A stretch of DNA of 64,000 nucleotides from the NCBI RefSeq assembly GCF_007679325.1, contig NZ_VEGI01000001.1:434001-498000 (forward strand), in the 5' to 3' direction. Each line of letters begins with the position of its first letter. The first letter of the stretch is position 1. The position numbers were made by a program, and so were the translations under genes. The notes beneath the pieces are model-generated. The model saw only the letters and a program-made list of their open reading frames with translations. It was not told the DNA's origin and did no database searches. The DNA is from Arthrobacter sp. U41 (GTDB lineage: Bacteria > Actinomycetota > Actinomycetes > Actinomycetales > Micrococcaceae). Below, in pieces: positions 20,821-40,815 of this stretch.

Positions 20821-21213
20821 CTACATGTTTGCTGTGCCTCGGCGGTGTTCTATGGCGAGGATGGTGACGTCGACCGCCCCTGGGGTAAGGCCGGTGTGGC
20901 TGATGCTTTCCTGCACGCGCCGTTGGACTGCTTCGGCGACGTCGAGGGCGGTATAGGCGATGTCGGTGGCAATATCTAGGTGGACGCGCGCGGTAGCGCC
21001 ACTGATTGTTGCGGTGACGCCGTCGTGCCGGAAGGTGCTGTCCTGACTGCCGGGATTCCGGAGGTGTTGCAGGGAGGGACCCAGCCGGGCCAGGAAGCCT
21101 TGGATGGTGGGTTCCAGTCTGAGAACCCCGGGTGTTTCCAGTGTGGTGCGGGAGGCAAGGGAGGCGATGAGCTGGCTGGTAATGATGGATCCTTGGAGGG
21201 GTTCGTCAGACAT
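20821..21213 (-). CDS. Asp23/Gls24 family protein (third gene of sigma operon)
   Basis: 130 residues. The C-terminal 70 match the Asp23 (alkaline shock protein) core: [18 protein letters not shown], then [18 protein letters not shown] and [12 protein letters not shown]. The N-terminal part ([19 protein letters not shown]) fits the first helix and strand. Known family members coat the inner face of the membrane, bound to the AmaP anchor. ATG at 21213 with GGAGGACC upstream, overlapping the end of the ZAS-Asp23 gene by eight bases, so translation is coupled. It belongs to the leftward unit led by the ECF sigma factor. Confidence 0.8.
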
Positions 21214-21820
21214 CGTAAAGGTCCTCCACGATGATGTTGACGGTTCCGGCCCCAATACCGACGCCGGCCGGAATCGCGCTGCTGATCTCGTGGCGAAGCG
21301 CTTCCGCCGCCAGGGGGATGACGATGCCCGGGGCGGCGGCAACCCGCAAATTGACGATGAGGCGCGGACCGGCGTCGGTGGCCATAACGGTGGTTCCGGC
21401 CGGGTGGTCTTCACCGGCGAGGCTGGCCGCGGCTGCGCGTATTTCGATGCGGCAGCGTCGAGGGTGGACCCCGGGAATCGCTGCTGCCGCGGACCGGATG
21501 AGGGAGCTCAGCGCCTGTTCACTGATCTCCGTGATGCCGGTGTCTGCGCTGCGCAGGAGGATTCTGCTGCCCTGGCGGACTTCCGCACGGGCCACGTCCA
21601 TGATGGCGTTCTTGACCCCGGGACGGGGTTTCAGCGCGGGATTGTGGAGGTCGCTTTCGCGCAGTGAACGGGTTGCTTCGCTGAGTCCCCGCAGTTGGGT
21701 TCTGGCAGTTTGGCATTGTCCGCACTTTTCTTCGTGTGCGGTGGGTGGCCGGTCAATGGTCGCCCAGATGCGGTCGATGCTCCGGCCGCAGCCGAGCCGC
21801 GGGATGTCATCTATCGCCAC
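21206..21820 (-). CDS. ZAS anti-sigma domain fused to an Asp23-like domain
   Basis: 204 residues from a GTG at 21820 inside the end of the sigma gene. Residues 10-45 contain H29-x3-C33-x2-C36 (HEEKCGQC) within a helical context, the zinc motif of ZAS anti-sigma factors. From about residue 85 to the end the sequence reads like an Asp23/Gls24 domain: ITEISEQALSSLIRSAAAAI, PRLIVNLRVAAAPG, LAAEALRHEISSAI and [13 protein letters not shown]. No membrane helix is present. Known ZAS proteins sit beside their ECF partner and hold it inactive; here the output-sensing half is an Asp23 domain. The fusion is read directly from one uninterrupted frame; regulation of the adjacent sigma factor is inference. 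Confidence 0.75.
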   Translation of the reverse strand: MAIDDIPRLGCGRSIDRIWATIDRPPTAHEEKCGQCQTARTQLRGLSEATRSLRESDLHNPALKPRPGVKNAIMDVARAEVRQGSRILLRSADTGITEISEQALSSLIRSAAAAIPGVHPRRCRIEIRAAAASLAGEDHPAGTTVMATDAGPRLIVNLRVAAAPGIVIPLAAEALRHEISSAIPAGVGIGAGTVNIIVEDLYDV

Positions 21821-22407
21821 TGGCTCATCCCTTCTGCTATCTGGTGCCGTGCCCGGGCGAGTGTGCCACGGACTGCTGTCGGGCTGATCTTCAGTGTGAC
21901 ACCAATCTCGGCATAGCTGCGTCCGTGCATTTCCCGTAATAGCCAGCAGGCCCGTTGTGCCGGAGGGAGCGTGCTCAGGAGGGCGGTCAGACCATTCTGT
22001 TCGGCCGACCATTCGGCCTCATGGGCCGGATCCCACCGGGCCGAGACCGCGCACGCGCGGGCCCCTGGCATGGTGTCCATGTCGTCCGAGTCGATGATGT
22101 CCTCGGCATGGGCTGACCGCTTGCGCAGCAGGTCCAGGCTTTTGTTCGTCGCCAGCCGGTAGATCCAGCCTCCAAAAGCATCAACGTCAGCCAGCATGGG
22201 AAGAGCCCGCCAGCTCGTTGTCAGAGTCTCCTGCACGATGTCCTCGGCGTCGCCGCGGTCGTTCAGCATACGGTACGCCAGCCTGAAGAGGCGGGACTGA
22301 TAGGTAAGCACCAGGTGTTCGAATGCTGCCAGATCGCCGTCCTGGGCGCGGGCGACAATACTCCCCTCGTCCAGGTCCGGTTCCAAGCCGGGGCCATGAT
22401 CGTCCAT
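21811..22407 (-). CDS. ECF-type RNA polymerase sigma factor
   Basis: 198 residues with the two ECF domains. Region 2 is FEHLVLTYQSRLFRLAYRML followed by DAEDIVQETL and FGGWIYRLATNKSLD. Region 4 is LPPAQRACWLLREMHGRSY with the helix-turn-helix YAEIGVTLKISPTAVRGTL. The linker is acidic (IIDSDDMDTM). ATG at 22407. The anti-sigma gene starts inside its 3' end (10-base overlap). It faces the Asp23-AmaP operon across a 195-base divergent intergenic region and very probably controls both. Confidence 0.93.
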   Translation of the reverse strand: MDDHGPGLEPDLDEGSIVARAQDGDLAAFEHLVLTYQSRLFRLAYRMLNDRGDAEDIVQETLTTSWRALPMLADVDAFGGWIYRLATNKSLDLLRKRSAHAEDIIDSDDMDTMPGARACAVSARWDPAHEAEWSAEQNGLTALLSTLPPAQRACWLLREMHGRSYAEIGVTLKISPTAVRGTLARARHQIAEGMSQWR

Positions 22408-22602
22408 GCACTGCCCATCCCGTCGTGATGCTCACCGGACCCTTGGCCCCAATATGCCACAGCCGGCCGACGCCGGAAACCGTTCCGCGGCGCTTGTCCT
22501 CGCCTGGGAAAAATAATCCGCCGTACAACGTGACGATTCCTGCCGGGCTTCGTCCTTACAGGTGTACGTACCACACCCAGTCCCACGAGGAGATGTTTTC
22601 CC

Positions 22603-23103
22603 ATGACAGAGACACCCAGGACCCCCGGAACCAACAGCGGCGTCATGGCCACCCCCGGACAGACGCACGGCAGCTCGCTGGAAGAATCGAAGGCCAGGGA
22701 CGCACTGCACACCGATCGCGGTGCCACGACGATCGAGGAAACCGTGGTGCAGAAGTTGGCCGGCATAGCCACCCGCGAGGTCCCTGGCGTGTTCGCCATG
22801 GGTAGTGCGGGCCGGCGGGCGTTCAGCGCCCTCACCGAACGCATTCCGGGTTCCCAGACCAACGTCAGCGGCGGCGTCAGCGTGGAAAAGGGCGAACGCC
22901 AGACAGCCATCGATGTCTCCATCGTCATTGACTACGGGTTCTCCGTGGTGGAGGTCAGCCAGGCGATCCGCCGCAACATCATCCAGTCCGTTGAGCGCGC
23001 CACAGGACTGGAAGTGCTGGAAGTGAACATCAATGTCACTGATGTCCACCTGCCCGAAGAGGAGCATGACGTCCCGCAGGAGCAGAAGACCGAACTTCAG
23101 TAA
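22603..23103 (+). CDS. Asp23/Gls24 family envelope stress response protein
   Basis: 166 residues with an N-terminal polar extension (to about 40). The Asp23 domain follows: TTIEETVVQKLAGIATREVP, then ERQTAIDVSIVIDYGFSVVE and TGLEVLEVNINVTDVHLPEE. It is the best match to canonical Asp23 in the window. In Firmicutes Asp23 forms a membrane-associated network anchored by AmaP. First gene of the rightward unit, ATG at 22603 with GAGGAG upstream; a DUF2273 protein follows 57 bases later. Confidence 0.93.
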   Translation: MTETPRTPGTNSGVMATPGQTHGSSLEESKARDALHTDRGATTIEETVVQKLAGIATREVPGVFAMGSAGRRAFSALTERIPGSQTNVSGGVSVEKGERQTAIDVSIVIDYGFSVVEVSQAIRRNIIQSVERATGLEVLEVNINVTDVHLPEEEHDVPQEQKTELQ

Positions 23104-23160
23104 CCGCCTGTCACAATATCCCCCGCCAAGGGGAACAGGACGATGAGGAAAAGGAAGGCT

Positions 23161-23340
23161 ATGTCTACTACACGTTGGTGCCTGACCATAGGTCTGGTAC
23201 TGGGAATTGTTTTGGGCTTCGGCGGCTGGCTGGCGCTGCTGGCCGCGGTGATCCTGGGATTCATCGGCCTGCTGGTCGGCCGGGTCGCGGAAGGAAAACT
23301 CGATGTGCAGGCCCTGTTCGGTAGAGCATCGAGCCGATGA
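23161..23340 (+). CDS. DUF2273 family small membrane protein
   Basis: 59 residues, essentially two back-to-back transmembrane helices (LTIGLVLGIVLGFGGWLALL and AVILGFIGLLVGRVAEG). DUF2273 proteins are constant neighbours of Asp23 and AmaP. ATG at 23161 after AAGGAAGG; the in-frame ATG at 23143 is less well placed. Its stop overlaps the next start (ATGA). Confidence 0.85.
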   Translation: MSTTRWCLTIGLVLGIVLGFGGWLALLAAVILGFIGLLVGRVAEGKLDVQALFGRASSR

Positions 23341-23765
23341 ACCCGCAAGGAACCCACGCGTTGACCGTGTCCGGGGACGGCTACGCCGGCGCGGACCTCG
23401 GTGAGACGGGCACACGCGGGCAGACCGTGCTGGCGGCCAAGGTGATCGAGAAAATCGCCGGCCAGGTCGCCAGCGACGAATCGTCCGCCGGCGGTGCCTC
23501 GGGCGGGTTTCTGGGCATCGGCGCGAGTGCTGATCTCTCGGCCCGGCCTAAGGCGTCCGTGGAACTGGCCGGGAACATCGCGACTCTAAGGGTCGAGGTG
23601 GGGATGCTCTATCCGGCGCCGCTGCGCCAGGCCACCGAGGAACTGCGCCGCCGTATCGCGACCAGGGTGACAGAGCTGACCGGAGTTGACGTCCGGCAGG
23701 TGGACATCAGGATCTCCTGGCTGACCACCGGAACCAAGTCCAACGGACGAAGGAAGCTGCTATGA
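23337..23765 (+). CDS. Asp23/Gls24 family protein
   Basis: 142 residues. The N-terminal half has GQTVLAAKVIEKIAGQVASD, the usual first helix, and the rest has PKASVELAGNIATLRVEVGM, LRQATEELRRRIATRVTELT and GVDVRQVDIRISWL, a complete Asp23 domain. A Gly/Ser-rich loop near residues 48-65 is longer than usual. Coupled at both ends by ATGA overlaps with DUF2273 and DUF6286, so stoichiometric production is likely. Confidence 0.9.
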   Translation: MNPQGTHALTVSGDGYAGADLGETGTRGQTVLAAKVIEKIAGQVASDESSAGGASGGFLGIGASADLSARPKASVELAGNIATLRVEVGMLYPAPLRQATEELRRRIATRVTELTGVDVRQVDIRISWLTTGTKSNGRRKLL

Positions 23766-24343
23766 GCAGGCACGGTCAACGGTCCACGCGCCTGCGGCAC
23801 CGGCCCAGCCGCGCCGTCCCGGCGCTGATCGTCGGACTATTGCTCCTGGCCGCCGGCGTCGCCCTGGTCTGGCTGAGCATTACCCGGCTGGTCAACGGCT
23901 CGTGGCCCAGCCTGCTCGAGGGACCACGGGACTGGCTCGCCGCTTTGACGTGGAACGACCCCGCAACGTGGCAGATCGGGACAGCAGCCGTCGTGGTAGG
24001 GGTGATCCTGTTGTTGTGCGCCCTCATTCCCGGCGGATACAACGCCATCGCCATCGAAGCTTCCGGCGTTGGAGATGAGGCGCCACCGGTGCAGGAGCAG
24101 GAAACAGTGATGACTTGCCGCGCCGTCGCCCACCTGGCCAAAGCCCGGTGCGGGCAGATCGACGGCGTCCGCACAGCCTCGGCGACAGCCACCACCGGGC
24201 GCGTACACGTGAACGTGACGACCTTCCTGCACGAGCCAGGGGACCTGCGCGCCAGGATCACCGACGCTGTGCGGGCCCGTCTGGAAGAGACCGGGCTCTC
24301 GCCCGTTCCGGAGGTTACCGCGACGGTCCGGTCGAGAGATTAG
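23762..24343 (+). CDS. DUF6286 domain membrane protein
   Basis: 193 residues. Basic N-terminus, membrane helix at about 18-42 (VPALIVGLLLLAAGVALVWL), a loop containing TRLVNGSWPSLLEGPRDWL, a second helix at about 72-93 (GTAAVVVGVILLLCALIPGG), then a soluble alpha/beta domain (GRVHVNVTTFLHEPGDLRAR). DUF6286 is a regular member of actinobacterial Asp23 clusters; its fold and position suggest a relative of AmaP. Function unknown. ATG overlaps the preceding stop. Confidence 0.85.
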   Translation: MSRHGQRSTRLRHRPSRAVPALIVGLLLLAAGVALVWLSITRLVNGSWPSLLEGPRDWLAALTWNDPATWQIGTAAVVVGVILLLCALIPGGYNAIAIEASGVGDEAPPVQEQETVMTCRAVAHLAKARCGQIDGVRTASATATTGRVHVNVTTFLHEPGDLRARITDAVRARLEETGLSPVPEVTATVRSRD

Positions 24344-24409
24344 GACCATTCGCGCACCCGCCCACCGCAACTATTTTGCCCACCGAGACTCTTTGAAGGA
24401 CGGTTTCCG

Positions 24410-25027
24410 ATGAGACAGACAGCAGGGACACTGAACCGGACCTGGCTGACAATTCTCGGCGTCCTTGTCGTGGCCGTCGGCGCCGCCCTGCTCCTGCAGG
24501 CCAACGGGACACTGCATACTCTTCTCGACACCGCCCGCCCAAGGACGTCCGTCGTCACCGGTGATCTGCACGCGTTCTTCGCGCAGCCCTGGGTGGCGGC
24601 CACCATGCTGATCATCGGAGTCATCATCGGGGTTCTGGGGCTGCTGTGGGTCATCGCCCAGATCCCGAGGAAAAACCCGGCGGGCGACTACCGCCTCCAT
24701 GACGACGCCAGCCAGGGATTCACCCTCTGCGACCCGTCGGTCCTCTCCACCGCCGTCGAAAAACAAATCAACACGCTGCCCGGTGTCATCACTTCCGCGG
24801 CCCTGCTGCGGGGAACAGCCAGGGCCCCTGACCTGACCCTGAAGGTGACAGTCAATGACAGGGCAGATGTCCAGGAGGTTATCCATCGCATCCAGACATC
24901 CACCCTGCCGGAGCTCGCCAACGCCCTGGAGGTGCCCCTGCAGCGCAGCGGGCTACAGATAGACGTCAGCGGACGAACCCAAAGCACCGGAACCGTGGTG
25001 CAGTCCACCGGCACCGTCGTCTACTAG
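24410..25027 (+). CDS. AmaP-like alkaline shock membrane anchor
   Basis: 205 residues with two helices (residues about 12-30 and 62-85, the latter VAATMLIIGVIIGVLGLLWVI) and a C-terminal alpha/beta domain (PDLTLKVTVNDRADVQEVIH). This plan matches AmaP, which anchors Asp23 to the membrane. The far C-terminus duplicates a short STGTVV phrase, also visible at the DNA level. Follows DUF6286 after 66 bases; last gene of the unit, convergent with the methyltransferase. Confidence 0.8.
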   Translation: MRQTAGTLNRTWLTILGVLVVAVGAALLLQANGTLHTLLDTARPRTSVVTGDLHAFFAQPWVAATMLIIGVIIGVLGLLWVIAQIPRKNPAGDYRLHDDASQGFTLCDPSVLSTAVEKQINTLPGVITSAALLRGTARAPDLTLKVTVNDRADVQEVIHRIQTSTLPELANALEVPLQRSGLQIDVSGRTQSTGTVVQSTGTVVY

Positions 25028-40715: not shown

Positions 40716-40815
40716 GGCACCCTCCCCCTGCGTGCGGCTACTCCGCTCAATTCTGCCGTGACGGCCCCCGGTGAACAGGGTCTTTGGGCCTCCGCCGGCT
40801 CCCGAACACGAAGAC

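Follow-up and report, generated by a model that had tools for sequence, protein, structure and literature searches.

A predicted soluble anti-sigma factor with an Asp23 domain, encoded beside the Asp23-AmaP operon of an Arthrobacter genome

Two facing operons

The window considered here is a stretch of 64,000 nucleotides from Arthrobacter sp. U41, a soil actinobacterium, in which a minus-strand sigma factor operon and a plus-strand Asp23-AmaP operon face each other. The sigma operon begins with a gene (21811-22407) for an ECF sigma factor of 198 residues, in which both Sigma70_r2 (E = 3.9e-16) and Sigma70_r4_2 (E = 2.2e-11) score over the Pfam cut-off and the NCBIfam model sigma70-ECF (TIGR02937) scores 85 bits. 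Overlapping it by 10 nucleotides is a gene with a GTG start (21206-21820, minus strand) whose 204-residue product joins a ZAS-type anti-sigma domain (ASD; residues 1-90, 21551-21820), assigned from hhalign comparisons and predicted helices, to an Asp23 domain (residues 94-201, 21218-21541; PF03780, E = 8.5e-7, 29.8 bits against a gathering score of 28) that contains a cysteine conserved in the family, Cys123. The gene is assigned from its translation, the family alignments and the overlap with the sigma gene, and we propose that this ASD-Asp23 protein acts as a soluble anti-sigma factor. The candidate zinc ligands, C11 together with H29-x3-C33-x2-C36, lie ahead of the Asp23 domain. The third gene of the operon (20821-21213, minus strand) overlaps the second by 8 nucleotides and encodes a protein of 130 residues, Asp23C, whose match to PF03780 (E = 9.1e-5, 23.3 bits) falls below the cut-off.

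A first-pass annotation of this DNA had described a single frame that links a zinc motif to an Asp23-like C-terminal half, with an ECF sigma gene overlapping it on the upstream side and a further Asp23 gene on the downstream side. This description holds up: the minus-strand frame at 21206-21820 is open for 204 residues, the residue numbers given for the motif are correct, the C-terminal half scores over the PF03780 gathering threshold, and both overlapping neighbors are as described, the downstream one by a match below the cut-off. The window protein and its closest relative also share an extra loop of about 18 residues in the Asp23 half (about 132-149; window 21372-21426), which is modeled with low confidence.

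The facing operon (22603-25027, plus strand) encodes Asp23A (22603-23103; PF03780, E = 1.6e-28), a small membrane protein (23143-23340) with no family over the cut-off and a position conserved among relatives, Asp23B (23337-23765; PF03780, E = 8.1e-7), a DUF6286 membrane protein (23762-24343; PF19803, E = 7.2e-24) and an AmaP-like membrane anchor (24410-25027), whose match to NF033218 (E = 1.2e-13, 51.2 bits) is just under the cut-off of 55. At two Streptomyces loci, L050 (9918-11243, plus strand) and L051 (9212-11593, plus strand), the Asp23B and DUF6286 matches share one open frame, which may be a gene fusion.

Relation of the N-terminal half to ZAS domains

Family models place the ASD only weakly. 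The best Pfam zf-HC2 match in the family has E = 0.076 and the window protein has none, and the sub-threshold NCBIfam matches include antisigmaE in 13/54 members and the RsrA and ChrR models in 2 each. We compared the ASD family by hhalign with ZAS proteins taken from relatives by PF13490, and obtained a probability of 93.7%; by subset, the value was 92.2% against RsrA-like proteins and 89.7% against the other ZAS proteins, as compared with 5.9% for the reversed control and below 1% for unrelated alignments. C11 of the window family aligns on the N-terminal cysteine of the RsrA-like set. Of the 93 family members in the first alignment, 91 retain all four candidate ligands, and none of the 125 ASD-bearing proteins lacks C36. 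When the PDB was searched with the ASD profile, the top match was a Mycobacterium tuberculosis chain, 3hug_B (E = 0.0035), with DdvA and RsiW lower. The PDB record bears the title conserved membrane protein; the chain is the anti-sigma domain of RslA. On these profile comparisons, homology of the ASD to ZAS domains of the RsrA/RslA type is supported, and with it the first-pass reading of the HxxxCxxC segment as a ZAS domain, at hhalign probabilities of 92-94% with the reversed control at 6%.

The full-length AF2 model of the 204-residue protein alone (mean pLDDT 80) has four helices followed by an alpha/beta Asp23 domain, with low confidence at residues ~61-90, and the model of the ASD alone (mean pLDDT 79) places the helices at 15-20, 28-32, 34-59 and 67-82, the last of which we call helix 4. 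Foldseek, however, retrieved only ferredoxin-like (metal-domain) folds for the full model and no anti-sigma structure for the ASD, and so gave no independent support for the ASD fold; short helical domains often fail in Foldseek.

The conserved cassette, its promoter and the lineages that lack the ASD

Homologues of ASD-Asp23 are present in the window's genus and also at the class and phylum level. The first-pass annotation had suggested looking for the pairing of ZAS and Asp23 domains across actinobacteria, and we find it in many relatives: among loci from the Actinomycetes with a readable upstream flank, an ECF sigma gene lies directly upstream of the ASD-Asp23 gene in 125/125 (three further loci, in which the flank ended at the end of the contig, are outside this count). 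The 80 named loci are mostly from Streptomyces, with the remainder from Arthrobacter, Paenarthrobacter and Pseudarthrobacter. Where the overlap between the sigma and ASD-Asp23 genes was measured, it is 4 nucleotides in 85 of 93 loci, and a third gene follows in 92 of 93, again with a 4-nucleotide overlap in 81; nearly all of these third genes link to the window's Asp23C by iterated profile search. An Asp23A gene lies on the same stretch in about 120 of the sigma-linked loci, and the Asp23-AmaP operon adjoins nearly all of them. Asp23A is divergent in most Streptomyces and in loci of the window's type. The main group of Arthrobacter loci differs, with the sigma gene and the ASD-Asp23 gene downstream of AmaP in the same direction. 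This arrangement is old and conserved, and far from what chance would produce.

Ahead of Asp23A in the window lies a putative ECF-type promoter, CGTGACG-N16-GTCCT (22529-22556, plus strand), whose -10 part is ~45 nucleotides from the Asp23A start and whose pattern is expected by chance 0.13 times per window. It recurs at the same position in relatives and is absent from operons without the sigma factor. A wider form, GT[GAC]A[CG]-N17/18-GTC[CT], stands upstream of Asp23A in 97 of 120 loci that have the sigma gene, among them the window, but in 0/25 sigma-less Asp23 operons, which come from two families (Arthrobacter relatives and Streptomyces); at other spacings it occurs in 1-5 of the 120. 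The Fisher p value for this association, 4e-15, ignores kinship and overstates the evidence because the loci are related, but the sigma-less set does span two families. A strict form, CGT[GAC]AC-GTCCAA, is found upstream of the sigma gene itself in 55/122 loci at spacings of 17-18, in none at 11-16 or 19-24, and in essentially no shuffled sequences. Since the patterns were chosen after viewing part of the same loci, the fair controls are the spacing profile and the sigma-less set.

Taken together with the arrangement of the genes, the promoter makes it likely, in our view with good confidence, that the sigma factor controls the Asp23-AmaP operon. The genetic tie that the first-pass annotation drew from the ASD-Asp23 protein to the sigma factor on one side and the Asp23-AmaP operon on the other is supported, and the promoter of that operon tracks the presence of the sigma gene. 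The strict element was not found upstream of the window's own sigma gene, and we therefore do not claim autoregulation there. A scan for sigma-70 promoters around the locus also found none. Over the window's whole genome the promoter pattern has 4 matches and its backwards control 6, which gives no ground for claiming a wider regulon; given this control, a second match in the window, CGTGACG-N16-GTCTT at 40757-40784 (plus strand), is likely due to chance.

We considered what becomes of the cassette in 21 Streptomyces homologues that lack the ASD. None of their loci has an adjacent sigma gene, a count that concerns the neighboring gene and leaves room for a sigma gene elsewhere in the genome. 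In a tree of Asp23 domains, the Asp23 halves of these proteins form one clade (100/98) nested within the ASD-bearing family, so that absence of the ASD is most simply explained by loss; several genomes hold both kinds, which marks the ASD-less set as a paralogous lineage. (The rows L229 and L230, labeled 'noASD' in this tree, are Asp23A proteins from loci that do carry the ASD.) This Streptomyces lineage has kept the Asp23 half but has neither the ASD nor an adjacent sigma gene nor the promoter.

These observations bear on whether the ASD acts on a sigma factor at all. It might instead be a decayed zinc helix pair beside a sigma factor that is regulated in some other way, as the sub-threshold Pfam matches and the Foldseek result for the ASD would allow. 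The hhalign comparisons with their controls, the linkage to a sigma gene at all 125 loci and the existence of one lineage in which ASD, sigma gene and promoter are missing together argue against such a reading, which we judge very improbable, and the anti-sigma role predicted for ASD-Asp23 appears to us highly probable. At locus L217 (7103-8791, minus strand), one frame of 563 codons runs from a sigma factor through helix 4 into the Asp23 half and lacks the zinc part; this is a single case, but the genome looks complete.

The ASD-less loci also point to a partner for the Asp23 half. In 20/20 of those examined, the Asp23 half stands in one frame with an Asp23C-like domain, a fusion that argues for contact between ASD-Asp23 and Asp23C where their genes are separate. 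We infer from it that Asp23C, a link absent from the first-pass annotation, is the best-indicated partner and probably pairs with the Asp23 half. The same fusion, and the strict coupling of the three genes, would also agree with an arrangement in which the Asp23 half answers to Asp23C alone, as to a small cytoplasmic co-regulator acting as a ligand or partner switch, and never meets a membrane layer. Almost every locus, however, has the cassette beside its Asp23-AmaP operon, and the promoter links the sigma factor to that operon. Both observations speak against so private a pair, and we consider it rather unlikely.

A second question is whether the zinc site itself is the sensor. The CHCC site could be a thiol switch like that of RsrA, which lets go of the sigma factor on oxidation, with the Asp23 half serving only as a tether or stabilizer. 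In addition to the conservation of C11, H29, C33 and C36 in the window protein and most of the family, and the alignment of C11 on the N-terminal cysteine of RsrA-like proteins, Cys123 (window codon 21452-21454) is found in 112 of 125 ASD-bearing proteins, so that a disulfide between nearly invariant cysteines is conceivable. In the ASD-less proteins, L, V or I stands in its place in 20/20; this distribution suggests that Cys123 may serve the sigma function. We note Cys123 as a possible partner for the invariant C36. In one whole family (f19) of the same taxonomic order, however, the ligands are eroded (-SSC, CRCC, CDCC, CECC and SENC, with C36 always kept), and these loci retain the ASD and the sigma gene and, in several cases, the promoter. 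A redox switch built on zinc thus cannot be the conserved signal, although it may act in the window's lineage; pure zinc redox sensing was set aside as the conserved mechanism for this reason, and the thiol switch as a whole we regard as unlikely. The f19 loci with eroded ligands are L046, L047, L206, L209, L211, L212, L214-L216, L218 and L224.

Of the 20 strongest couplings in a direct coupling analysis of the sigma factor against ASD-Asp23, 15 involve the ASD and 5 the Asp23 half. With 125 pairs (Meff 68) the analysis is shallow, and the signal is partly one clique of columns that differences between groups could explain; it is only suggestive, and we give it little weight. Distance correlation by mirror-tree did not separate the two halves (0.945 versus 0.947).

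Possible control of the Asp23-AmaP layer

In Staphylococcus aureus, Asp23 forms filaments and is located at the membrane, where it is held by AmaP (PMC6954212). The window resembles that system in encoding Asp23 proteins and an AmaP-like anchor. The S. aureus operon is SigB-dependent and is not known to have an Asp23-bearing anti-sigma factor. Since the products under control in the cassette are themselves Asp23 proteins, of a kind that forms a layer in S. aureus, feedback from Asp23 to Asp23 is the most economical model for sensing.

We suggest that the ASD of the 21206-21820 protein would hold the sigma factor made from the overlapping gene, and that the Asp23 half, paired with Asp23C, would be the regulatory half that sets its release. 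Free sigma factor would transcribe the Asp23-AmaP operon from the promoter at 22529-22556 and, in many species, its own operon as well. Under homeostasis, Asp23C and, through it, the membrane layer of Asp23A, Asp23B and AmaP would bind to the Asp23 half and thereby hold the ASD in the state that retains the sigma factor. If the layer were depleted or disturbed, the Asp23 half would lose its partners, and the sigma factor would be freed to have the layer rebuilt.

The starting points of this model can be read from the sequences themselves: the make-up of the domains, the homology to ZAS proteins, the coupling of the genes, the shared promoter and the lineage without ASD, sigma gene and promoter. 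Binding of the sigma factor by ASD-Asp23 is predicted from them, whereas it is conjecture that ASD-Asp23 touches the membrane layer and that the response runs in the direction given here. Taken as a whole, a soluble anti-sigma factor that is paired with Asp23C and exerts homeostatic control over the Asp23-AmaP layer is the account we favor, and one we hold to be somewhat better than an even chance; sensing of the membrane layer by ASD-Asp23, taken by itself, we put at somewhat less than an even chance. We put forward still more tentatively a specific form of such sensing, close to what the first-pass annotation had supposed, in which the layer reports its own state: the anti-sigma factor would either copolymerize with the structural proteins whose operon its sigma factor transcribes or be capped by them. 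In other words, if this were true, the integrity of an envelope layer would be sensed by assembly, with no need of a transmembrane sensor. The location of S. aureus Asp23 in AmaP-held filaments at the membrane also accords with a different possibility, that the Asp23 half fixes the complex of sigma and anti-sigma factor at the layer. Release would then require that the complex be cleaved by a protease or the layer be lost, while the ASD keeps its shape. The genetic predictions of such sequestration are much like those of the model we favor, and we think it improbable.

Several known systems offer points of comparison. Proteins of the Asp23 family have already been predicted to be anti-sigma factors for ECF286 and ECF292 (PMC8999054, a review that cites the 2021 re-classification of ECF sigma factors), and the core idea of the first-pass annotation is therefore partly published. 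The window's sigma gene likewise adjoins a gene for a soluble protein of the Asp23 family. The review offers no mechanism for these groups and does not mention a zinc domain, a promoter, a third gene or any connection to AmaP for them. ChrR of Rhodobacter sphaeroides is similar in being soluble, with an N-terminal ZAS domain and a C-terminal sensor domain (PMC8999054). In contrast to the cupin-like sensor of ChrR, however, the C-terminal half of the window protein is an Asp23 domain, and the protein has no cupin-like domain. RsrA and RshA are likewise soluble ZAS proteins, and the CHCC pattern of the window protein aligns with those of RsrA-like proteins, but they have no Asp23 half and the ligands of the ASD are dispensable in f19. 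A search of literature that takes in few subscription journals returned no paper that describes a zinc domain on such proteins, Asp23C, the promoter or the lineage missing ASD and sigma gene together. The new evidence given here consists of the promoter that tracks the sigma factor, the lineage from which ASD, sigma gene and promoter are all missing, the fusion of a sigma factor to an Asp23 half, and the tie of the ASD to ZAS domains of the RsrA/RslA type.

The cassette, which occurs in Streptomyces, in relatives of Arthrobacter and in several other actinomycete families, joins the question of what Asp23 does to an ECF group that has been without a mechanism. It supplies a sigma factor with a likely target, the Asp23-AmaP operon, along with the sequence of a promoter and a candidate sensor domain. 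What the Asp23 layer reports on thereby becomes a testable question. A cell may thus use a lining protein as its own gauge, with a switch that is indicated, in >100 relatives, to control production of the Asp23 lining on the inner side of the cell membrane. A further strong Asp23 gene lies elsewhere in the window's genome, on another contig (G000:C25:34524-34844; L264), and probably belongs to an Asp23 operon without the cassette.
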